Shown here: positions 21,731-35,413 of the stretch, piece after piece
How the letters are laid out: every line of letters begins with the position of its first letter
Numbering within the stretch: position 1 is the first letter of the stretch
IMG/VR virus record: IMGVR_UViG_3300044712_001179
Span: 1-35,413 of that record
Strand: one strand, 5' to 3'
Source of the DNA: a virus
DNA length: 35,413 bases
Position numbers and translations under genes: made by a program
Notes under the pieces: model-generated
Seen by the model: only the letters and a program-made list of their open reading frames with translations
Told to the model about the DNA's origin: nothing
Databases searched by the model: none

Positions 21731-22141
21731 CTATTCACTTAATGGAGTAAATGTTACACTGGTCCTCCATCTGTCACCGAGAGATTTACAAAATCCATCT
21801 TGCATAGCTTCTATTATTTTTGATGAACCCTTTTTGCTATTTAAAAACTTTTCGAACTCAGATTGGATGTAGGCTGTCTTCCCCTGTAAAAACGATTGAA
21901 GAGCGTTTTTCATAGCCTGTTCAACCATTTGATGCATGAGCCATGTCAGTCTTGGCTTGCTTGATGAATACGTTGACTGCTTTCCGTCAGAATCTACTTT
22001 TTGGTTCATGTAGGCGTTAAGTATATCGGTTATAAGTTTTTCATGCCCTCCCAACGCCTCCGTAATCGCAAGGTTTATTTTTGCTTCCAATATCGGCCGT
22101 ATTAAACCTTCACTGATTTTAAATTCAAGCTGGTCTGACAT
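21731..22141 (-). CDS. Conserved phage protein, MSDQLEFK family (136 aa)
   Basis: Begins MSDQLEFKISEGLIRPILEA and continues with KINLAITEALGGHEKLITDI. The opening and the segment YMNQKVDSDGKQSTYSSSKP recall a phage family of unknown function with a conserved basic helical middle (VEQAMKNALQSFLQ). The AT-rich DNA here contrasts with the neighbours. Start follows AGCGAGGTGAGCG. Confidence 0.75.
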   Translation of the reverse strand: MSDQLEFKISEGLIRPILEAKINLAITEALGGHEKLITDILNAYMNQKVDSDGKQSTYSSSKPRLTWLMHQMVEQAMKNALQSFLQGKTAYIQSEFEKFLNSKKGSSKIIEAMQDGFCKSLGDRWRTSVTFTPLSE

Positions 22142-22928: not shown

Positions 22929-23156
22929 TCACCTCACCTTCGCCAGCCGGATGCGGGCCCGTTCCAGCATGGCCTGCCGCTCCGACAGGTTGGATTTGAG
23001 CCAGTACTTGTGGGATTTCTTCAGGGCGGGGCGGGCCTTCTCGGCCATAACCTTGCTGGGGATGCAGTAGCCGTTCACAACCATCGACATGTAGCACTGC
23101 TTCCATCCGCACTTCTTGGCCAGTTCGATCCACTTCAGCTTCAGTCGGTTCTTCAT
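22929..23156 (-). CDS. HTH-type regulator, Cro/CI-like (75 aa)
   Basis: Begins MKNRLKLKWIELAKKCGWKQ. The helix-turn-helix is in ELAKKCGWKQCYMSMVVNGY, followed by IPSKVMAEKARPALKKSHKY. First gene of the minus-strand replication operon, with AAGGAGGAG before the ATG. The operator pair at 23235-23272 and the promoter at 23199-23227 lie just upstream, so autoregulation is likely. A transcriptional regulator of the early switch is the best guess. Confidence 0.8.
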   Translation of the reverse strand: MKNRLKLKWIELAKKCGWKQCYMSMVVNGYCIPSKVMAEKARPALKKSHKYWLKSNLSERQAMLERARIRLAKVR

Positions 23157-23198
23157 TGACTCCTCCTTGGGTTGGTGTGATTGCTGCCGTTAAGGAGG

Positions 23199-23227
23199 AG
23201 TAAATCATAGTCCCAATACTTTGTCAA
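23199..23227 (-). promoter_or_regulatory. Promoter for the HTH/replication operon
   Basis: Minus strand: -35 TTGACA (23222-23227), 17-bp spacer, -10 TTTACT (23199-23204). Consensus -35, moderate -10. Directly downstream is the gene at 22929-23156. Confidence 0.55.
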
Positions 23228-23234
23228 TAATAAA

Positions 23235-23272
23235 ATTGCCCCCACAGCAATAAAAATTGTCATGGGAGCAAT
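23235..23272. promoter_or_regulatory. Two 17-bp operator-like palindromes
   Basis: ATTGCCCCCACAGCAAT (23235-23251) and ATTGTCATGGGAGCAAT (23256-23272), each with ATTG(C/T)/GCAAT arms, centre to centre 21 bp (two helical turns). They sit just upstream of the -35 of the HTH promoter. Likely binding sites of the HTH protein or of a phage repressor. Confidence 0.55.
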
Positions 23273-23540
23273 CAAAACGATTACCGCGTGTTGTTTACCG
23301 GATGCGACGCCCCGGGGTCATGCCTGGATAGGGAAGAGGAATAGGATAGTCATGGACATCATACATCCTCTGAGCACCGGCATCACCCCCCTTCGTGGAA
23401 ACCCTTGACCTGCTCAACGAATTGAGCTTATAGTTCAGATGCGTCTACCTCAAGTTTCAGCGGATAGGGTCGCTCCCGAAAAGCTGAAATCCCACAGCCT
23501 GCCGCTGAAATTCTCTTGGGATCGCATAAGGGATAATGCG
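23273..23540. promoter_or_regulatory. Spacer with plus-strand promoter before the endonuclease gene
   Basis: No protein gene. A plus-strand promoter candidate is TTGACC (23405-23410), 18-bp spacer, TATAGT (23429-23434). An inverted repeat TTTCAGCGG/CCGCTGAAA lies at 23455-23463/23502-23510. The start codon of the next gene falls in a hairpin at 23521-23542. Confidence 0.5.
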
Positions 23541-24080
23541 ATGAAGCCCCTCAAGTGGACTACCACCTCTAGGCAACACGCCTACATGTCCAAGCGCCAA
23601 AGCCAGAACAAAACCAAGTCTTTTAGCAGCCCCAATGAAAACTGGATGAGTACCAAGCTCAAGACAACTCCATATAAATGGACCCGTCAAGCCGTGTGGG
23701 GTTATCGGGTGTTTGATTTTTGGTCGTCCCATATCGGAGTCGCGGTTGAGGTGGATGGGAAAGAACATGATGTTGCCTATGATGCCTACCGTGATGAATA
23801 CAACTTCCGCCGTAGCGGGATAATTGTGCTAAGGGTAAGAAACGGTAACGATGAAGACGCCGCCGTGGCGATTGAAGCCATATCTCAAATAGGAGACTGG
23901 AAGGAGCGCAGAAGCAAAATGGGTCTTGAAAACAAAAAGACAAGGCTTGCGTTGGTCGATGTGGATAGCAGCCGGTGTCTTTTGAAAGAGTTTCTATGCT
24001 CCCTTAACCACCTTCAACCCGTCGCTTCCACGCAGCCTGTTTCGGCGTCATCGTCCCCGGTAGAATCAAGCCCCGCTTGA
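23541..24080 (+). CDS. DUF559/Vsr-like endonuclease, possible homing enzyme (179 aa)
   Basis: Begins MKPLKWTTTSRQHAYMSKRQ; an alternative start is at M16. The core resembles DUF559/Vsr-fold nucleases: D59 in YRVFDFW, VEVDGKEHD with E70, D72 and H76, then YRDEYNFRRSGIIVLRVRN. Such nucleases are linked to mismatch nicking or homing. The gene is the only plus-strand gene between two minus operons, and its last 77 bp run antisense through the end of the gene at 24004, so its C-terminal tail (after about residue 153) may be fortuitous. The ribosome site AAGGGA sits in a hairpin loop and the ATG in its stem, as in regulated homing genes. Confidence 0.72.
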   Translation: MKPLKWTTTSRQHAYMSKRQSQNKTKSFSSPNENWMSTKLKTTPYKWTRQAVWGYRVFDFWSSHIGVAVEVDGKEHDVAYDAYRDEYNFRRSGIIVLRVRNGNDEDAAVAIEAISQIGDWKERRSKMGLENKKTRLALVDVDSSRCLLKEFLCSLNHLQPVASTQPVSASSSPVESSPA

Positions 24081-24453
24081 ATCCGGACGGATCGTTCCAG
24101 TTGGCCTCCCCGAAGTTCTTCACGCAGAAGTAAGCCACCTGACGCACCAGAAAGTTGATCTCATCCTTCTCCATGAACGCCTTTAGAATAAGGTCGGCGG
24201 TCGCCTTATCCGCCTCATGGGTGACGTACAGATCGTCGTGCGGGACGACGCCCACCCCCAGTTCATACGGACTGAGCACGGCCCACAGCGCAGGCGGGAT
24301 GCTGCCAAAGTTCGTTTCCCGCCCCGCTTGGACCGTGAAGGGACGTCCGTCCACCGTGTATTCGAACGGTTCGATCAGCCGCCAGTACGCGAACCGATCG
24401 GACCCGACGCCCAGGAACTCTACCCGGATGGGCCGTGGGTAGTCGATGATCAT
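24004..24453 (-). CDS. DUF1353 protein (149 aa)
   Basis: Begins MIIDYPRPIRVEFLGVGSDR. DUF1353 signature: ETNFGSIPPALWAVLSPYELG followed by VVPHDDLYV. DUF1353 genes occur at the end of phage lysis and tail-fibre clusters; the function is unknown. The last gene of the late operon. Its final 77 bp are overlapped by the convergent endonuclease gene. Confidence 0.85.
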   Translation of the reverse strand: MIIDYPRPIRVEFLGVGSDRFAYWRLIEPFEYTVDGRPFTVQAGRETNFGSIPPALWAVLSPYELGVGVVPHDDLYVTHEADKATADLILKAFMEKDEINFLVRQVAYFCVKNFGEANWNDPSGFKRGLILPGTMTPKQAAWKRRVEGG

Positions 24454-24707
24454 TTGGGTGCGGCGGCGTTATCGACCATTTTGGAAATGACGGCACTCTT
24501 CGCGGCCGACCCCGCCGATGTCCCGAACACGTAGTTAATGACGGTCGTGAAGTTTGAAATCCAGCACCCGATCAGGAGCGGCAGGATGTTCTGCATCATC
24601 GCCGCGGCCCACTCGTTGCCCCATTTGATAGCCATCATGGCCAGCACCGTGATCAGGATGAACCCCGCCACATTGATTGCGGCCAGTATCGCTTGCGCTC
24701 TATTCAT
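24450..24707 (-). CDS. Holin-like membrane protein (85 aa)
   Basis: Begins MNRAQAILAAINVAGFILIT. Two predicted transmembrane helices (about 8-28 and 38-60) and a polar tail ending DNAAAPK. Size, topology and place in the lysis cassette match a class II-type holin, which forms holes that free the endolysin. Start overlaps the stop of the gene downstream (ATGA-type overlap). Call by context and topology, not by sequence similarity. Confidence 0.65.
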   Translation of the reverse strand: MNRAQAILAAINVAGFILITVLAMMAIKWGNEWAAAMMQNILPLLIGCWISNFTTVINYVFGTSAGSAAKSAVISKMVDNAAAPK

Positions 24708-24716
24708 ACATCACCT

Positions 24717-25535
24717 CTACGAGAAGATTTTAGCGGATTGGTAGCTCCCCAAAATGTTGGGGGATTGGGGATACTCCCGGCTCGGGAGCGCCTTTCGAAT
24801 GGCCCGGAACCAGTCGGTGTAGGTCGCCCCGGGTTTCAGCGCTTGGAGCGTGTTCAAAGCCGTGTAGGTGAACGCCCCGTTGCCCCGGCCCCCGTAGTTG
24901 GCGTCGTAGGAATACTCTGCGTCCTGACACCCGGACATGAGCAGGCAGGGCCACGGGCTTCGAACGTCCCAGACGTCCACCGCCGGCCGCACCTCGCGGG
25001 TGGTGAGCATGGGGACCACCACGTTGGCGACTTGCAGTGCCAACTGGAGGGCCATAATCACCGACCACGGGAGGAACTTCTTGGTGCCGGCGCCGACCGG
25101 CTCAAATGCCCGCACCATCGACCCCGAGTGGCAGGAGTCCGACAGCCAGACCAGTTGAACACCTGGCCGCTTCGCCTTCATCAGGGACCAGATTTCGTAA
25201 TCATAGATGATGTCGATGAATTTCTGGTCGTTGCTGACCACACAGATCGCCTCGTCCAGTTTGTCGGGTTCATCCAGGGCCTCGCTGGGGGCTTGGGTCC
25301 CGTGCCCCGAGAACTGGATGATGACCGAATCCCCCTTGACGGCCTTGCCCAGCAGGTACTTGATGTTGGCGATCACGTTGGCCCGGGTTGCGGCCAGATC
25401 GGTCAGGGTCTTGGTCACGAACCCATGCGCCGCCAGCACCCCCGCCCAGTCGTGCGCATCGTTCACGCACCCCGACAGGTCGCTTCCCGTGCCGGGGTAG
25501 TTGTTGATCCCGATACACAGTCCCAGTTTCTGCAT
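24717..25535 (-). CDS. Metacaspase/caspase-like protease, peptidase C14 fold (272 aa)
   Basis: Begins MQKLGLCIGINNYPGTGSDL and has the p20 order of metacaspases: LSGCVNDAHDWAGVLAAHGF, catalytic histidine H78 in IQFSGHGTQ, an acidic loop DEPDKLDEAICV, catalytic cysteine C135 in DSCHSGS, and the late SGCQDAE (201-207). Such proteases cleave after Arg/Lys and are often linked to programmed death in bacteria and eukaryotes. There is no signal peptide. It sits between the holin-like gene and a lipoprotein gene in the lysis cassette. Possible roles are lysis timing, cleavage of host defence proteins, or virion maturation; phage-encoded members are uncommon. Confidence 0.9.
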   Translation of the reverse strand: MQKLGLCIGINNYPGTGSDLSGCVNDAHDWAGVLAAHGFVTKTLTDLAATRANVIANIKYLLGKAVKGDSVIIQFSGHGTQAPSEALDEPDKLDEAICVVSNDQKFIDIIYDYEIWSLMKAKRPGVQLVWLSDSCHSGSMVRAFEPVGAGTKKFLPWSVIMALQLALQVANVVVPMLTTREVRPAVDVWDVRSPWPCLLMSGCQDAEYSYDANYGGRGNGAFTYTALNTLQALKPGATYTDWFRAIRKALPSREYPQSPNILGSYQSAKIFS

Positions 25536-25545
25536 AGGCCACCCC

Positions 25546-26025
25546 CTACTTGGCCGGGACGTACGGGATCTTGGCCTTGACCGCCGACGGCTTGACGGGC
25601 GCTTTCTTATTCGTCAGCCCCATCTGGTAACCCATCGTGTACCCTTGAGCCGCCCGGTCCCAGTACGCTACCGGAATCCCACTCAGGGAAATCAGGTTGT
25701 TGTCCGGCCCAAACCCGGCGCCCATGTTGGTCAGGATGATCATCAGCGACCCGGTCAACTGGGGGTTCTGCGCCTTCAGGGTGACGAACGCAAAGGCCAC
25801 CTGTTCAGGATTTAGCGTGCCCGTGCGTGCCAGGGCGTAGGCGTCCGCAATCGCCTGGTCATCGGCGGGGCTCTTGGACGCCCCCACAAAATAGCCCAGG
25901 TTGTAGCCCCCCAGTTCAATGGCGGTGAGCATGGCCTGCTCGTTGGTGATCTGGAACCCCGTGCCGGAACACCCGGCCAGGCCCATCAGGAGGATCAGGA
26001 TCATGGAGATTCGTTTCGCATTCAT
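25546..26025 (-). CDS. Lipoprotein (159 aa)
   Basis: Begins MNAKRISMILILLMGLAGCS with a clear lipobox LAGC (cysteine at residue 19), so it is exported and lipid-anchored. The body contains helical repeats with GYNLGYFVGASKSPADDQAI and GYTMGYQMGL. Possible roles are spanin-like membrane fusion during lysis or superinfection exclusion; the helical body does not resemble a classic Rz1. Close linkage (10 bp) to the metacaspase suggests they act together. Confidence 0.75.
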   Translation of the reverse strand: MNAKRISMILILLMGLAGCSGTGFQITNEQAMLTAIELGGYNLGYFVGASKSPADDQAIADAYALARTGTLNPEQVAFAFVTLKAQNPQLTGSLMIILTNMGAGFGPDNNLISLSGIPVAYWDRAAQGYTMGYQMGLTNKKAPVKPSAVKAKIPYVPAK

Positions 26026-26037
26026 GAGATACCCTTT

Positions 26038-26550
26038 CTATGCTTGAACGTCCGGGGCCTCCAGCCCCTCGCGCAACATGCGGCGGACCTTTTCCGTCGC
26101 CTCGCGCTTGGTGATGATCGTGTCGTGGTCGATGTCCAACCCTGCGTTCTGGCGGTAGGTGGTGGGCCGCTCTCCCTCGCAAATCAAAGGAGCGTCCAGA
26201 TCCAACCCGATGCCGCGGGGCCATAGGATCGCCATATAAACGTCTTCAAGTGAGTGGAGTCGGTCGTGGTACGGAAGGAAATACTTGTGGACGAAATCCA
26301 ACTGCTGCACGGCGGTCATGTTGGATAGCACGGCCGTGGTGGTCCCTAACGTGGCGGCGGTGGAGGGCATGAACTGGATCAGCCCAACCGCACCCGATCC
26401 GGCCTGATTGTAAATCTTGGGAGAGAACGTGCGCCCCGTCTCGAAGGCCATGCAGCTCATTAGCCAGTCGGGTTCGATGCCCAGGTCGCCACAGATGTCA
26501 CAGACCCGCGACAGGAACTCGCCGGATACCTTGTGGCTCCATGCGATCAT
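26038..26550 (-). CDS. Lytic transglycosylase, SLT-like endolysin (170 aa)
   Basis: Begins MIAWSHKVSGEFLSRVCDIC. The SLT catalytic motif is MAFETGRTFSPKI with glutamate E37, followed by GLIQFMPSTAATLG (56-69). These enzymes cleave the glycan of peptidoglycan. No signal peptide, so it fits a canonical cytoplasmic endolysin released by the holin. The last third (about 120-170) has no recognisable domain. Start overlaps the next gene stop (ATGA). Confidence 0.88.
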   Translation of the reverse strand: MIAWSHKVSGEFLSRVCDICGDLGIEPDWLMSCMAFETGRTFSPKIYNQAGSGAVGLIQFMPSTAATLGTTTAVLSNMTAVQQLDFVHKYFLPYHDRLHSLEDVYMAILWPRGIGLDLDAPLICEGERPTTYRQNAGLDIDHDTIITKREATEKVRRMLREGLEAPDVQA

Positions 26551-27101
26551 TTAGTCCCCTTGTGTGCTTCTTCTATTTGGGAAAGCCGCCACGATACGAC
26601 CTTCATTTCACCCGATATGGTGTCCAGTTGCTTGGTCTGCTCCACATCCATTCGCACCCGTTCGTCCACACCCTCTGTGATGCGCTGGTTCACCCGTTGC
26701 AATTTGGTCCCGATATCGGTGGACATGGTGGAGACATTGGAGGCCACCTCTTTGATGTCCGATCGCAACCATACCGCTTGTCCGATGATGACCAGCGTGG
26801 CAATCGATACCAGAAACGAAACGAATTTCGTTATCCCGCGCAGGTCCTTCTGGTCCGCTTTCTTCCCGATCTCCAACTTGAGTTCCCCCATATCAGCGTC
26901 GTGGTAGGATTTGAGGGCCGCTAAGTCTTTTTCACTATCGTCTTTCACCGCACGTATTTTCCCGCACACAATGACTCGATGCTCCTTGGTGCTTTCTTGA
27001 ATGATGGCATGGTCGGGGCAATGGATATCCCCCTGCCGCCGACCTTCCTTCCCGGGGATAGGGTTTTCCTTCCGTCGTTCTGTAATGCCGTCCCAAGTCA
27101 A
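26547..27101 (-). CDS. XhlA-like membrane coiled-coil protein (184 aa)
   Basis: I take a TTG start at 27101 (MTWDGITERRKENPIPGKEG) after GGGAGGG; an ATG at 27170 overlaps the upstream gene. Features: a CPDH/C pair near residue 28-47, a coiled region, one transmembrane helix at about 93-111 (KFVSFLVSIATLVIIGQAVW) and a long C-terminal coiled coil. The layout resembles XhlA/hemolysin-type lysis proteins. Overlaps the endolysin start. Start choice is uncertain. Confidence 0.62.
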   Translation of the reverse strand: MTWDGITERRKENPIPGKEGRRQGDIHCPDHAIIQESTKEHRVIVCGKIRAVKDDSEKDLAALKSYHDADMGELKLEIGKKADQKDLRGITKFVSFLVSIATLVIIGQAVWLRSDIKEVASNVSTMSTDIGTKLQRVNQRITEGVDERVRMDVEQTKQLDTISGEMKVVSWRLSQIEEAHKGTK

Positions 27102-27138
27102 TCCATGTGCCCTCCCGCTAAAGGGGTTGATCTGATAT

Positions 27139-29250
27139 TTATTTAAGTTTCCCGCCTTTGAGAACGCCACCCCGGAAGGTCACCTGGCTCGGGACTTCCG
27201 CTGAAATGTCGAAACTGATCTGCGCCGGAGTGGTCGTAGCGTTCCCCGCCGTATCCGCACAATGCACCCAGTACGTGTAGTTCCCGGGGGATAGGCTGAT
27301 TTCTTTGGAGTGGTCCAGCCCGTTGGTGGTTTCAAAGAAGCTGGTCATGGAGCTATAGGTAATATTGGGGCCGACCGCACTGTACCGGCATCCATACAGG
27401 CCCAGACAGGCTTCATCGGTCGTGATCTGCAACGTCACGGTTTGGGGATCGCTGACAAATGCAACCGTGCCGGAGGGCAAAGGCGCCGACATGGTGGGGG
27501 GCGTAGAATCACTGGCGGGATACGATCCATATTCCAATGCGCCGATATCCCATGACCCTCCGCGAGAGTAATTATTGAAATCGTTGCTGGTGCCAATCAA
27601 TGTAGCAGATTCATAAGCCGCATCTCGGGCAGGGGACCCAGATTGCAAATAGAGTTGAGCGGCATAGTCGGTCCCCGTGTAATATCCGCTTGCAATCCCG
27701 GGCCCCTGCTTGATGGTGCCAAAAAACAACGGGTCACTTCCGCACAAAGAGTTCGCACCCTCACAACCCGAATTACTGCTGGCCGTCAGATAAACAATCG
27801 AATAGTCGAAGTCAAACGCAGCGGCCGTACACGTTCCCTCGTACCAATAAAGAGCCGTCAGTTCGTCCGCAGATCCTACGTTGTGTTCATATCCCCAATC
27901 ATAGCCGCCATAGATGATGCTGTTGCGAATGGTAAGCTGTGGCGATCCCGTACATCCTGCGCCCGCCAAGGAAAACACCACATCCCCAATACTCATAATG
28001 GTGGAATTGGTGATGTATCCCCGGTTGCTGGTCAGCGGGAAGTTGATGCTGATCGGAGTCCCGGCCGCACGGCAGTAGTTCATTTCGACCGATGCTCCCG
28101 TGTTGTCCTTCAGCGAAGTGAATGCCGCTCCGTGGAAGAAATTGCAGTTACCGGCAATGATGCTGTTCTCCATATAGAACGTGCCGGTAGACTTGAATCC
28201 CTGGCCGTTGTTCCCCTCGGCCTTGCTGCGGATAAATTTGACCGTACTGTTTCCGTTTCCGTGTGCAAGGTCAAGGCCGTCCGATGAGTTCCACGAAAAG
28301 CTCGAATCGGTAATGGTCCAGTTGCCAGGGTTGCCGTCGCCACCGCCGAAGCCGTCCCCATAGCCGCCCTGCTGCTGCTCCCAGCAATGGTGCGCGTTAG
28401 AAGACGCCCCCAGCGCCGCCTGCAGCGGGTAGCGCTCGCCGCACCCGTTCCATTCAATCCGAGTTCGGGTGAGATAATGCTCTCCCGTACGTGTGTTGGT
28501 TAATGGGGTATCCCATCCGGCGAACCCGTTGTTCATTATTTTGACGTCTGTAAAATTAAGGTCGCCCCCAGAATTGGTTTCATAGATTCCGTGTCCACCC
28601 AATCCGTGAATGTCCACATTGGTTAGTGTCACCCCGGACGCGCCGTTGCTGATGTCGACGCCGTGCCGTGCCCAGTTCCCACTGGCAGACCCCGTGTACC
28701 ACCCAGCCACACACTGAGTGGGGAACCCATCTACCGTTCCATCAATAGGGCCACTGCCAATGCAGGCCGAGTGGTCGGTGATGTCCAGGCACTGGATCTC
28801 CGTATTGCTGCCCAATGTCAGGACGGCTAGTGTGCCCCCGGTCCCCCATAACTGCGGTTTTGTCCCCGTACACCCCGTGTTGTATCCCGCCCCATAAATC
28901 TTGGTCTTGGCGACGGCGCTGGACCCTGCCGGGACCGCGTTAAGATAGGGCTCGTAACTATTCCAATAGGACCCCCCGGAGTTGGGCATCCCCAACCCCG
29001 CCATATATTCTCCAGCGCCAATGATAAGCGTATCGCCTGCCACCATGACACCAGATGCACCGCCATAGCCCCCTAGCGCCCACGCCGGGTGAATGAACGC
29101 ACACGCCTGCCCACTGCCGGTCCCTGGGTATGCTGCGTCCGTGGTGCCCGTGCATTGTGTCGATGTGCCGCCGTCCGTGCGGACGTAGTAGGTCGTCGCT
29201 GCGCAGGGAACCGTGATGAGGATTAGAATAAGGGCTAATAGTTTGCTCAT
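27139..29250 (-). CDS. Exported beta-helix protein with Ig-like C-terminus (703 aa)
   Basis: Start MSKLLALILILITVPCAATT, a Sec signal peptide (cleavage near PCAA). The middle is a right-handed parallel beta-helix of the pectate-lyase type, with repeated turns such as GVTLTNVDIHGLGGHGIYET and STVKFIRSKAEGNNGQGFKS. The C-terminal about 110 residues (PPTMSAPLPSGTVAFVSDPQ onward) look like an Ig/FN3-type domain. Beta-helices of this kind are common in tailspikes that cut surface polysaccharide, but a signal peptide on one is odd. ATGA overlap with the upstream gene. Confidence 0.82.
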   Translation of the reverse strand: MSKLLALILILITVPCAATTYYVRTDGGTSTQCTGTTDAAYPGTGSGQACAFIHPAWALGGYGGASGVMVAGDTLIIGAGEYMAGLGMPNSGGSYWNSYEPYLNAVPAGSSAVAKTKIYGAGYNTGCTGTKPQLWGTGGTLAVLTLGSNTEIQCLDITDHSACIGSGPIDGTVDGFPTQCVAGWYTGSASGNWARHGVDISNGASGVTLTNVDIHGLGGHGIYETNSGGDLNFTDVKIMNNGFAGWDTPLTNTRTGEHYLTRTRIEWNGCGERYPLQAALGASSNAHHCWEQQQGGYGDGFGGGDGNPGNWTITDSSFSWNSSDGLDLAHGNGNSTVKFIRSKAEGNNGQGFKSTGTFYMENSIIAGNCNFFHGAAFTSLKDNTGASVEMNYCRAAGTPISINFPLTSNRGYITNSTIMSIGDVVFSLAGAGCTGSPQLTIRNSIIYGGYDWGYEHNVGSADELTALYWYEGTCTAAAFDFDYSIVYLTASSNSGCEGANSLCGSDPLFFGTIKQGPGIASGYYTGTDYAAQLYLQSGSPARDAAYESATLIGTSNDFNNYSRGGSWDIGALEYGSYPASDSTPPTMSAPLPSGTVAFVSDPQTVTLQITTDEACLGLYGCRYSAVGPNITYSSMTSFFETTNGLDHSKEISLSPGNYTYWVHCADTAGNATTTPAQISFDISAEVPSQVTFRGGVLKGGKLK

Positions 29251-30002
29251 GGGCACGCCCCCGGCATGGTATCGTTGTCTAATTTAAAAATATCGATTTG
29301 CCCTACCAAACCCTGAGAAGAACGGGATCCGATATAGACGCCATCAAGATTTCTGGCGGTCATGGACGCTGTGATAGCGCCGGCCTCAGTCCCATTGATA
29401 TACAATCGGGCCTCGGTCCCAGAAACATATTTGACTCCTACGCGATACCAGGTCCCGACATCGTACGCGGCGCTTGTGGTTGCCTCTTGCCCATTATACG
29501 CTACCAGCTTGAGTTTGTACGCGCTGGTGCTTCCGCTGCTGGATTCCACCTGAAGGATAAACCCATAATCCCACACATTGGTAAGATATCCTGAAAATGC
29601 GTGAGAGGATGAGTACGCCGTCAATGACGTTATGTTCATGTAAAAGTTGGCGTACAGCGCATCCGTTTCCGTGATCGACTTGTATGAATATGCCGTATCC
29701 GTGTTCGCAGCGGTCCACTGCCACGCCTGCGTCCCCTTGTCGGTGCAGGACAGCGTCCCGCTATGGGACGCATCTTCGTTGATGGCCCCGGTCCCGCTCA
29801 CGGATTCCGTCCATCCGGTACAGACATATCCCGTGCCTTCCGCGTCTTCGCACAGAACGTCCGCATCAGCGACAGAGGTGCATCCGGCGCTACACGCGGT
29901 TGTGGCCGCGGCGTAGGCTTTCACCCCCGGGCCTGGCCCCATACCCCATTGCGCCCATGCGAACCCGGGAGTCAGTAAAAAAAGGATCACCAGTTTTATC
30001 AC
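29247..30002 (-). CDS. Exported LamG/ConA-like lectin-domain protein (251 aa)
   Basis: Begins MIKLVILFLLTPGFAWAQWG with a signal peptide cleaved after AWA. The C-terminal two thirds (roughly 70-240) have the jelly-roll features of a concanavalin A-like/LamG domain: KLKLVAYNGQEATTSAAYDV, GTWYRVGVKYVSGTEARLYI, GVYIGSRSSQGLVGQIDIFK. Such domains bind carbohydrates. The stop overlaps the beta-helix start. Part of a set of three exported fibre-like proteins. Confidence 0.8.
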   Translation of the reverse strand: MIKLVILFLLTPGFAWAQWGMGPGPGVKAYAAATTACSAGCTSVADADVLCEDAEGTGYVCTGWTESVSGTGAINEDASHSGTLSCTDKGTQAWQWTAANTDTAYSYKSITETDALYANFYMNITSLTAYSSSHAFSGYLTNVWDYGFILQVESSSGSTSAYKLKLVAYNGQEATTSAAYDVGTWYRVGVKYVSGTEARLYINGTEAGAITASMTARNLDGVYIGSRSSQGLVGQIDIFKLDNDTMPGACP

Positions 30003-31528
30003 TTGATGGTCCTCCAGTTGAGGGTGACCGCTCCTGGGGTCACGGCTCCCGCCGTGTTGTTACACACCTTGAAGTTTGCGTTCCCCGATGTCGGATAGGC
30101 GATGATGGTGAGCATCCCGTTGGCCGATGCGGAGTATCCCGTAGTACTGGTGGGGTCGGCGTTGAACCCCCACGCGATGATGTCGGTCGTGGCAATGCCT
30201 GTCCCGGCGACCGTCACCACTGATGCGCAGGCCCCAGATGCGATCTCGGATGTCCCCAGCGCGGCCGTCCCAGTTGCGGCCGGGGCTGAGTTCTGGAGCG
30301 GGGTGATCCACGATCCCGTCTGGATGTAGGGGTCTGCCGCACTCCCCGCACCCGCTTCGCCCGCGTTGGTCCAGGCCAGCACCATCCCGGCCGCACTCGC
30401 CCGCGCCGATGGCATCTGCAACAGGTAGGACCCGGACGATGAAACGGCCGGTGCCCCGTAGAACCCCGACCCGTACACATCCGTCCCGTTCACCGTGTAG
30501 AGAAACAGTTGCCCGCCAACCCCGGATGATCCCTTGTAGAGCGTTAGCTGCGACCCGCCGTCGCTGGACCCGTCGAAGCAGTCGCCGTTGGTGCAGTTCC
30601 CCACTCCGGTTACATCCCCACTTCCGCCCGATGCCGCGGCCCATTGCCCATCCCCCCGCCAGAAGGTGGTTTCTGACGCATTGGTCCCGCCTGCCAGGTT
30701 GGTCACCGGAAGATCACCCGTGACCCCCGTGACCAGGGACACCTGCGCCCACGCAGGATTGTTGGAAGTCCCCGTGTTGCTGAGATACCGGGTGGCGCTG
30801 GTGCTCTTGGCCAGCTTCCCCCACGCATCCGTTCCGGTCGCGTATAGAACATCCCCTTGGACCCCGGCGACCGCGGCCAGGCTGGTCAGAGTGGCGTCCA
30901 AGGTCTGGTACGAGCCTGCGGCCTGGAACGAGGCAGGGTTGGTAAACCCCTGCTGCCCCGTGGTGCTGGAGGTTACCAGATAATCGTTCCCCGCCGGATA
31001 GGCCGTGGGGGACCGCCAGGTCAGGTTGGCCGCGCTGACCCCGGCCCGGAATTCCGCGTATTTCCCCACTCCATCGTAAAGCCGATAGTAGGTGCCGGAG
31101 CTTGCGCCCCCCTGGCCGCACTCCCCCGAGAGACAGTCGCCCCAGGAGTAGACGTCGCCGCCTGACTGTGACACCGCCCAGGCTGGGATTCCCGTAGCCG
31201 ACATGGTCAGGACGAAGGCGTTGCTCCCTGCTGGCAGGACCGCCCAGGCCGTACCGGTGTAGTACAGCGTGTCGCCCTTGGTGCCGGATAGGTTGGTCAG
31301 GGCGTCCAAAATGCTGGAGTACGCCTGCACATCCGTTCCGATGGCGAGGCCCAGGTTCGTGCGCGCACCGGCCGCGGTCTTGGAGTTGGTCCCCCCGCAA
31401 TCCAGGTCGAATGCCCCGTTCAAGTCGTCATCGCATTGAACGGTCGTCGCGCCAAAGGCACCTCCCGAAAGGGCCAGGAGCAATATGGCAACCCATAGGA
31501 CCCCATTCACCAACCTCATTTTTTTCAT
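29999..31528 (-). CDS. Exported tail-fibre-like protein (509 aa)
   Basis: Begins MKKMRLVNGVLWVAILLLAL with a signal peptide (cleavage near GAFGA). The early segment AAGARTNLGLAIGTDVQAYS and repeats such as LDALTNLSGTKGDTLYYTGT and LTSLAAVAGVQGDVLYATGT are hallmarks of phage tail fibres and pyocin-type fibres. Gly/Ser/Thr-rich, with a C-terminal region GVNPDxGN... of unknown fold. Fibres normally have no signal peptide, so these may be envelope-exposed host-modifying proteins or fibres of an odd assembly route. GAGGG precedes the ATG. Confidence 0.8.
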   Translation of the reverse strand: MKKMRLVNGVLWVAILLLALSGGAFGATTVQCDDDLNGAFDLDCGGTNSKTAAGARTNLGLAIGTDVQAYSSILDALTNLSGTKGDTLYYTGTAWAVLPAGSNAFVLTMSATGIPAWAVSQSGGDVYSWGDCLSGECGQGGASSGTYYRLYDGVGKYAEFRAGVSAANLTWRSPTAYPAGNDYLVTSSTTGQQGFTNPASFQAAGSYQTLDATLTSLAAVAGVQGDVLYATGTDAWGKLAKSTSATRYLSNTGTSNNPAWAQVSLVTGVTGDLPVTNLAGGTNASETTFWRGDGQWAAASGGSGDVTGVGNCTNGDCFDGSSDGGSQLTLYKGSSGVGGQLFLYTVNGTDVYGSGFYGAPAVSSSGSYLLQMPSARASAAGMVLAWTNAGEAGAGSAADPYIQTGSWITPLQNSAPAATGTAALGTSEIASGACASVVTVAGTGIATTDIIAWGFNADPTSTTGYSASANGMLTIIAYPTSGNANFKVCNNTAGAVTPGAVTLNWRTIK

Positions 31529-34500: not shown

Positions 34501-35413
34501 TGATCGGATTTGCGGGGCGTCCGGTCTGAACGTACTGGCGCGCGTTGATCAGTAACTGCCGGATCTCGGCATCCGACATCTGTAGGTCCAGACCGAGACG
34601 CCTGAGTCCGCGCCGAATTGCAGCGACCACCCTCTCTACGGTGGTGCTGGTGGGATTCAATTCGGCCTCCCGCGAGAGATATTCCTCGACCGCAAACCGC
34701 CGGTCGCGTTCATTGGCCAGATTGTAATTGTACTCCTTGGCGATCTGCTGGATATCGGAGAGCTTGGACTTGTAGACCATCTCCATCGTGGGCGCCCATA
34801 CTCCCATGGCATTCAGCATCCGGCGGATGCCGTAATGCCCGAACGACTCATGGACGATGGTGCGCATCAAATCTTTGTGGTCGGTGAAGTTGTCGGCCAC
34901 CACATAGATTTTGTCCTTGAAGAACACGCCGCGCACCAGATCCCGCTCGGCCCCCTTCTTCTTCAGGAAGGCCAGCACCTCCTGGGGCAACTGGGATTGG
35001 GATTGGACGGCTTCCACCCGTGGCGCGTTCTCCCATTCCCGTGCGAACCCGTCCGCAAAGCGTTGGGCGCTTTCACGGGTGAGGACGCGGGGGGGCGTGG
35101 TCTTGGTGCCGGGACGTCCCATGGCGAAGGAGGGTTCGTTGCCGATGGCGCTCTCAACGGCCTTGGCAAAGTTTTCTTCGGCCGTGTCCATGTCGCCACG
35201 CCCTGCAAGGGCCTTATCGTCAGCCTGCTCTTCCCGATAGGCGTCAACGGCATCCTGCAATTCGGCAGGAGCTTTGCCTTCTACAACCAGCCCCTCGACT
35301 TCATCGACCAAATCGCTGATGGTGAATTCGCCTGTACCGTCATATTTGTCCCATGCTTGGAGCAATTCTGATTGGGACTTCTTGGCGAAGGAGGGTTCAT
35401 CCTCCTTCCCCAT
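31553..35413 (-). CDS. Large polyvalent virion-type protein, C-terminal part (1286+ aa)
   Basis: Open to the window edge; the ATG at 35413 lies exactly at the edge and need not be the real start. Short EPSFA/EPAF repeats at about residues 6-10, 93-97, 308-312 and 315-319 look like linkers or cleavage sites between domains. A zinc-protease-like motif HESFGH (188-193) resembles those of phage large polyvalent proteins. The long helical rest includes aromatic conserved segments (GYAFRGFSHNYLNLIHNW). Such giant proteins are injected or packaged with the DNA. Next downstream is the fibre-like gene at 29999-31528. Confidence 0.8.
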   Translation of the reverse strand: MGKEDEPSFAKKSQSELLQAWDKYDGTGEFTISDLVDEVEGLVVEGKAPAELQDAVDAYREEQADDKALAGRGDMDTAEENFAKAVESAIGNEPSFAMGRPGTKTTPPRVLTRESAQRFADGFAREWENAPRVEAVQSQSQLPQEVLAFLKKKGAERDLVRGVFFKDKIYVVADNFTDHKDLMRTIVHESFGHYGIRRMLNAMGVWAPTMEMVYKSKLSDIQQIAKEYNYNLANERDRRFAVEEYLSREAELNPTSTTVERVVAAIRRGLRRLGLDLQMSDAEIRQLLINARQYVQTGRPANPIKLFGEPAFSKQTEAPAEPAFDKRTPAEAEQGRTASDALDRSPEMREVKDGITIITRPNGPKQQAALARKARGVLMQARQELDSVFGKGYVDRDMKMLQRVLETPYGLSKKFLSMAKAMKIEIMADETRKSMLYHYYKDFGLDQMQDYFTQNPADLKTFTDLMWKYEGKRFSESDVPTDAITWPKNTDESPVINQAHYDEVKSYLMGQGVSEVLADHYVNLRKALDSVLVELDSKLRTGSLDPELITEFRSQIGQVHNYFPHRRKGDSQISIRDTEAVGTDNELVYREHYFWKEDNLYRKLGKSNARQRAQDWLAGAIANGDLKGPIERYQIMRPDKVTQLPDEVFWHVPIEGMQQIAEVAGRSLERSRVATEADRLLKNGEVKTYAEGLEKARKVLTKDMEVALSQAIADTFKQRGFARHAIGRKGIPGFEKGDLFGIMQDYLSGFAGFTTKIERARLHNAVLREVDAKRNPEEYKYVSNYVRDMLANSDKHDRLVDGIRGLFFVKYLGWVVKSGLVNLTQNVVMAEPRLGMETKHPWKYLLKSMADVRGALTTMEGLKGKEVQYTNLSDNEREMIHSLWEKGLTIDVFFTELRGKVPGNSMAGRAWKKFVEHGGIFMRVAERYNRVSTALAAYRVGVEEQGLSHKAAIELAKQVVYDSHFIYGKHNLPMWARGGVLQKYIRSGYAFRGFSHNYLNLIHNWMTHQGPRGKLAVFRSFRNLAIVGGLGAMPFFDAFGKALMMAFGEDDKEAMTAIRESLPEEWMRNTATYGLPGLAGVDLQGSLALDFPKSWAEILGVPYAAYKDTLNMVDSWTSGQKLRAVSESPITPIMVRNAMRGIELYTLGQFTRSGRPLNSPDQTGPRKIDEYDLVAKAAFGFQPTAISSGYAESQAIDQAIQYVKSHQSKIADRWMNARNNNDDEGMKDAMIELLKWNEKQVAADKPHLQITTEMFKASLRARMMQPGQKVPKNLRAEAADTSKTWQ

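Follow-up and report, generated by a model that had tools for sequence, protein, structure and literature searches.

The window, the whole 35,413-nt stretch of viral DNA analysed here, encodes among the lysis genes of a phage a protein that, judged from its sequence, is very probably an active metacaspase. The enzyme belongs to a known family; it is real and unusual, and its setting is new.

The metacaspase gene and its late operon

The gene occupies 24717..25535 on the minus strand (ATG at 25535, stop at 24717) and encodes 272 residues. Residues 4-262 match the Pfam family Peptidase_C14 (PF00656; E 1.4e-22, 81 bits against a curated cut-off of 21.4 bits). By sequence, the best match among solved structures was 3bij (GSU0716; E 3e-27), and metacaspases of plants and yeast ranked next. 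The His-Cys dyad that defines membership of Peptidase C14 is present in its SGHG and DSCHSG motifs, both intact. His78 lies in FSGHGTQ (residues 75-81; codons 25293..25313, minus strand) and Cys135 in SDSCHSGS (residues 132-139; codons 25119..25142, minus strand), and the two catalytic residues were invariant in an alignment of 48 relatives. The p20 region (residues 1 to ~140) is followed by a linker (~141-195) and p10 (~196-272). The reading frame, residue numbering and full caspase-type dyad given in the preliminary description therefore all stand, and the search against peptidase C14 families that it had proposed returned PF00656.

The metacaspase gene is one of ten genes on a single strand that together span positions 35413 to 24004, the intervals between neighbours ranging from -32 to +24 nt. 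In order, these encode polyvalent, fibre-like, LamG-like, beta-helix, TM/coiled-coil (207 residues), SLT, lipoprotein, metacaspase, two-TM (85 residues) and DUF1353 proteins. The polyvalent/internal protein is 1286 residues long and shares this late operon with the metacaspase, and the three tail-spike/fibre genes (27139..31528, minus strand) follow one another with gaps of -32 to -4 nt. The coiled-coil protein (26547..27170, minus strand), which is spanin- or holin-like with one TM helix (residues 117-135) and an uncertain start, had no family match in family-profile searches. Next come the SLT transglycosylase endolysin (26038..26550, minus strand; 170 residues; PF01464) and a protein with the lipobox LAGC (25546..26025, minus strand), a candidate outer-membrane lysis lipoprotein. 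On the other side of the metacaspase lie the holin-like protein (24450..24707, minus strand; TM prediction, with the second TM segment assigned by eye) and, as the last gene of the operon, the DUF1353 protein (24004..24453, minus strand; PF07087; phrog_1158, named a tail assembly chaperone).

The metacaspase gene lies 10 nt behind the lipoprotein gene and 9 nt before the two-TM gene, with a further 12 nt separating the lipoprotein and SLT genes. Its placement in a lysis cluster, as first described, was thus confirmed. The gene has its own Shine-Dalgarno site (GGGGGTGG), and its GC3 of 84.2% is matched by the lipoprotein (83.8%), polyvalent (83.1%) and portal (87.0%) genes. A search of positions 23000-27500 for minus-strand promoter and terminator patterns gave none between the SLT and DUF1353 genes. 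From this anatomy (same strand, gaps of 10 and 9 nt, no terminator or promoter call) we infer that the metacaspase is co-transcribed with the lysis genes. Given the tight gaps, the gene's own Shine-Dalgarno site and a GC3 matching that of structural genes, mis-assembly or a recent acquisition of foreign DNA is unlikely.

The window also encodes an SU10-type portal, Terminase_2, TerL (phrog_38), Prim-Pol and an exonuclease. The portal, terminase and Prim-Pol genes mark the contig as phage and, by the portal and terminase, as that of a podovirus-like phage. Megablast of the operon against phages returned no relative. Near the end of the operon, an int-alpA RNA (Rfam RF02996; 23457-23521, plus strand; 44.6 bits, where 35.8 is required) overlaps the beginning of a convergent plus-strand ORF of 213 residues (23439-24080), which by eye has the look of a DUF559/Vsr-type nuclease. 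A separate gene of 136 residues at 21731-22141 (38.9% GC and 38.7% GC3, against 56.7% GC for the phage; no family match) is probably a recent import.

Fold and predicted active-site chemistry

An AlphaFold2 model of the metacaspase built with 48 relatives reached a pLDDT of 88.9 and a pTM of 0.88. Its sole segment under pLDDT 50 (residues 138-144) comes directly after the catalytic loop, and residues 170-190 were also weak. Structural comparisons were made with an earlier, 16-row model (pLDDT 80). Foldseek returned 3bij as the best PDB match (E 7e-20), and VIA-align, over the full length of the protein, gave Z scores of 28.5 to AtMC9 (Arabidopsis metacaspase 9) and 27.3 to 3bij. These matches span residues 1-272 and show a caspase fold with p20 followed by p10. 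The initial assignment had been staked on this fold appearing in a predicted structure, and it does.

In TbMCA2, the proposed S1 pocket consists of C92, D95, S156 and D211 (PMC4357240). Profile alignment to yeast-type metacaspases places C23, D26, S76 and D133 of the window protein at these positions. Among the 48 relatives C23, D26 and D133 were invariant, and S76 nearly so. As the residues of this acidic pocket for Arg/Lys are kept, the enzyme is predicted to prefer a basic P1 residue and hence to cleave after Arg or Lys.

Four Asp residues serve as Ca2+/Sm3+ ligands in CgMCA-I and TbMCA2 (D173, D189, D190 and D220 in the latter; PMC9622860). In the window protein two are kept, as D94 and D112, and two are replaced, D190 by Y113 and D220 by R142. 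Arg or Lys occupies the R142 position in 70 of the 82 viral relatives and in 78 of the 79 bacterial ones. The loss of two of the four ligands places the protein with orthocaspase-like enzymes rather than with Ca2+-dependent (type I/II) metacaspases, and suggests that it would activate itself independently of calcium. A passage in PMC8283722 describes the Microcystis orthocaspase MaOC1 as Ca2+-independent and Arg-Arg specific. Gating by a holin-driven calcium influx was considered and dropped, because Y113 and R142 replace two ligands.

Membrane anchoring was also considered as a possible hallmark of the phage proteins. Of 82 viral representatives, 11 had TM or signal segments (12 when counting a weak internal hydrophobic segment of the window protein, residues 159-177, KD 1.99), and of 79 near bacterial relatives none did. 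However, 15% of bacterial metacaspases in general have TM helices (PMC3501461). As the phage members are no richer in anchors than this, the argument was abandoned.

Relatives and their genomic neighbourhoods

Three pattern scans located other viral METACASPASES on about 90 contigs; with the window counted, they form 82 clusters at 70% identity. Both catalytic motifs were present in 82 of 82 distinct viral metacaspases, in scans that required one of the conserved motifs. With some 80 distinct homologues on viral contigs, the possibility raised in the preliminary description that all homologues would lie in bacterial chromosomes falls away. Metacaspases of tailed phages seem to be nearly absent from described phages, yet recurrent in uncultivated viruses. 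Across the 50,697 records of INPHARED, four different queries gave one clear match, an uncultured 485-kb phage, while one of the queries also listed a Salmonella assembly as a weak, partial match. PHROGs held no match to the window metacaspase at E 0.01, and a search of viral contigs with the window protein alone returned no relative. The top BFVD matches were eukaryotic giant viruses, and no tailed phage was present among 24 BFVD matches with E up to 0.001.

By identity, the closest homologues (45-48%) are chromosomal metacaspases of Rhodocyclales/Burkholderiales (Dechloromonas, Azonexus, Rhodoferax). In a FastTree phylogeny with local supports and a bacterial sample picked for similarity, the window protein paired with the viral protein of contig L004 (96), and the pair fell in a group (99) that mixed 19 bacterial with 18 viral rows. 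The viral rows did not form a single clade, which suggests more than one transfer of metacaspases between cells and phages. In L004, the gene of this nearest viral metacaspase lies between TerS and TerL-like genes (TerL assigned by eye) and not in a lysis cassette.

Linkage to cell-wall hydrolases was assessed with five peptidoglycan hydrolase families in 50 contigs, each 20-200 kb long and drawn in the order of their listing, with the window excluded. A hydrolase exceeded the cut-off in 11 contigs. The metacaspase lay within 1 kb of it in five (L012, GH24; L016, M15; L125, GH25; L150, GH25; L152, M15) against 0.72 expected by random placement (p 0.0003), a statistic that is partly post hoc, as the families were chosen after the neighbours in L012, L016 and L150 had been noticed by eye. 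Among the eight contigs not noticed beforehand, two had the pair within 1 kb against 0.5 expected (p 0.09). The 131 immediate (+/-1) neighbours of viral metacaspases included muramidase, GH24, GH25, NlpC/P60 and amidase endolysins; for 117 genes at a distance of six places, neither library had an endolysin among the 25 most frequent families listed. A universal link to lysis was rejected, with many phage metacaspases adjoining terminase, capsid, portal, clamp-loader, Hsp20 or Lon genes. The pattern is suggestive: a minority of phage metacaspases stand beside cell-wall hydrolases, above expectation, and many stand elsewhere. The survey of other phages for the same neighbourhood, proposed at the outset, thus gave a divided answer, with hydrolase adjacency recurring in unrelated phages but only in this minority.

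DUF1353 was examined as a possible partner. Six metacaspase phages have it, and in four of them (L017, 7461-7970; L126, at about the -2 gene; L115; and the window) the distance to the metacaspase is less than 3 kb. Without the window, two of five contigs had the pair within 1 kb (p 0.03), too few for an argument.

Several viral relatives have features of their own. In L018 (6686-8830) and L020 (4801-6795), an apparent intein with an HNH-like block, recognised by eye, follows directly after the catalytic SGHG (SGHG|CFSGDT... VHN|SQ). The L021 protein (1837-2748) has a changed segment order, with an SGHG-like block (SSHGSYTYDKNGDEEDGQDE) at the C-terminus, behind the DSCFS and SGC blocks; this is either a natural rearrangement or an assembly artefact. 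One lineage (L144, L145, L148, L153, L163, L176 and L137) has metacaspases with a C-terminal TM helix beside genes for an Hsp20-like protein and a ClpS-like adaptor, with a ClpX-like gene also nearby in L137. In L012 and L019, a Lon-like gene is directly upstream of the metacaspase. It is conceivable that such phages have a module for proteolysis that could supply ClpS with new N-termini.

The endolysin offers a view of the cassette from its other side. The SLT protein retrieved 69 viral loci (41-61% identity), and none of the 69 had a metacaspase in the flanking sequence available. Several of the loci read (L182, L186 and L188) have a TM protein before and a small Rz1-like lipoprotein after the SLT gene, resembling holin-endolysin-Rz1 cassettes. 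Contig L189 encodes relatives of the window's SLT protein (58% identical), lipoprotein (37%), DUF1353 protein (45%), two-TM protein (75%) and the product of the following 75-residue gene (34%), and has no metacaspase at this site or elsewhere in its 25,761 bp. The same cassette without the gene points to an accessory insertion and not to core lysis machinery. Assuming that the L189 phage is viable, the cassette functions in the absence of the metacaspase, which by this comparison is an accessory to it. The DUF1353 and two-TM genes are swapped in L189, which prevents an exact reconstruction of the insertion from this pair. The two-TM protein has a second relative in L252, whose sequence begins only just before that gene, and the DUF1353 protein as a query returned no relative from viral contigs.

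Possible roles and comparison with known systems

Our preferred reading, held tentatively as possible rather than probable, is that of an accessory, late, orthocaspase-like protease which would act independently of the canonical metacaspase Ca2+ site and cut host proteins after Arg or Lys at the end of infection. A moron-like gene would have entered the lysis cassette between the lipoprotein and holin-like genes. Its place in the late operon suggests late production from a transcript shared with the endolysin, and after translation the protein would probably cleave itself in the linker. With the specificity predicted from its pocket, it may then cut host proteins in the cytoplasm or on the inner face of the membrane during the last phase of infection, a step suggested by operon position and by the dispensability seen in L189. 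The metacaspase would thereby aid host shutdown and lysis without being an essential lysis factor. Against this reading, a proteolytic lysis helper should benefit many phages, yet none of the related endolysin loci has one, and the sister enzyme in L004 adjoins packaging genes. A broader proposition appears doubtful to us: that the late or lysis modules of unrelated phages have acquired caspase-family proteases on repeated occasions, for use as self-activating Arg/Lys execution enzymes that dismantle host proteins during lysis, a viral counterpart of the execution of bacterial programmed cell death.

The main rival, which we regard as unlikely, is counter-defence, with the protease cleaving a host antiphage protein such as a defence protein of caspase-like or NLR type or an abortive-infection effector. 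The gene's accessory presence/absence pattern and its rarity among phages would fit a host-specific role of this kind, and bacterial caspase-fold proteins form a category in PADLOC. Counter-defence genes, however, are usually early, and a position with lysis genes in a late operon does not fit. No defence or counter-defence gene lies immediately beside the metacaspase, whose neighbours are lysis genes, and the models of specific systems all fail: NCBIfam caspase_w_EACC1 scores 18.4 bits against a cut-off of 140, and the PADLOC match covers 130 of 453 positions. A moron might instead serve the host, giving the infected cell a caspase-like abortive response through lysogenic conversion or the exclusion of other phages. 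A lysis cassette beside structural genes is a common site for morons, which is where this gene was inserted, and its nearest bacterial homologues are the chromosomal genes of Rhodocyclales/Burkholderiales. But the gene is co-oriented within the late operon, 9-10 nt from its neighbours and with no promoter call of its own, and no tyrosine integrase was found in the window, though the record may be incomplete; we judge host cargo to be quite improbable.

The two remaining alternatives would tie the enzyme to phage proteins. As an activator of the cassette, it would trim the holin-like protein, the lipoprotein or the endolysin and so set the time of lysis, much as the preliminary description had suggested in proposing a role in triggering or timing host death. 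The gene's place between the holin-like and lipoprotein genes and the recurrence of endolysin neighbours in other phages would suit such a role. It is weakened by L189, whose endolysin, lipoprotein, DUF1353 and holin-like genes do without a metacaspase, and by the terminase genes that flank the nearest viral relative; moreover, the endolysins adjoining other phage metacaspases come from unrelated families, so no common substrate is apparent. We consider activation of the cassette more improbable still. Least probable of all, in our estimate, is a virion maturation protease that cuts the polyvalent/internal protein or other virion proteins. The late operon shared with the polyvalent and fibre genes is consistent with maturation, as is the terminase neighbourhood in L004, but we saw no head or virion gene consistently paired with the metacaspase, and none of the results singles out the polyvalent protein, which the preliminary description had named as a possible substrate. 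The enzyme is also missing from the L189 phage, whose fibre and lysis genes are comparable. That absence disfavours an obligatory role in either cassette activation or virion maturation.

If tailed-phage metacaspases act at lysis, as our preferred reading proposes for this one, they would allow the work of a caspase-type protease inside bacteria to be studied in a defined and mutable setting, and would bear on whether both sides of the phage-host conflict have used caspase-type killing. In the literature, metacaspases figure as cellular proteases of death and stress, and viral ones are known from eukaryotic giant viruses. In the open-access papers searched, we found none that describes a metacaspase in a phage lysis cassette.

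GSU0716 of Geobacter sulfurreducens (3bij) resembles the window protein in fold, dyad, p20-p10 order and single-domain architecture, at ~30% identity, but comes from a bacterial genome and not from a phage. A 2012 survey (PMC3501461) noted that a metacaspase operon of G. sulfurreducens, which may or may not be that of GSU0716, includes an amidase. The chromosomal metacaspases of Rhodocyclales/Burkholderiales share the motifs and the R142-type substitution of the window protein; their loci differ, with no phage genes around, and most of those read precede a gene for a protein of ~1650 residues. This gene is often found 3' of chromosomal metacaspases in these orders and others (among L022-L101, e.g. 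L023, L028, L052, L067, L071 and L090), and an ORF for a GH19-like endolysin stands before the metacaspase in Pseudomonas akapageensis (L090). Orthocaspases such as MaOC1, likened here by description, are also prokaryotic, with a degraded calcium site and the basic P1 preference that is predicted for the window protein, but are cellular and not viral. Eight phage-related metacaspase operons have been reported in Clostridium botulinum (Asplund-Samuelsson et al. 2012, PMC3501461). These too place metacaspases in phage-like clusters, but in bacterial chromosomes, and are mentioned in one sentence with no lysis context. The metacaspases of Fadolivirus, Clandestinovirus and Medusavirus, the giant viruses that top the BFVD matches, are viral and have the same fold as the window protein, but belong to viruses of eukaryotic hosts.
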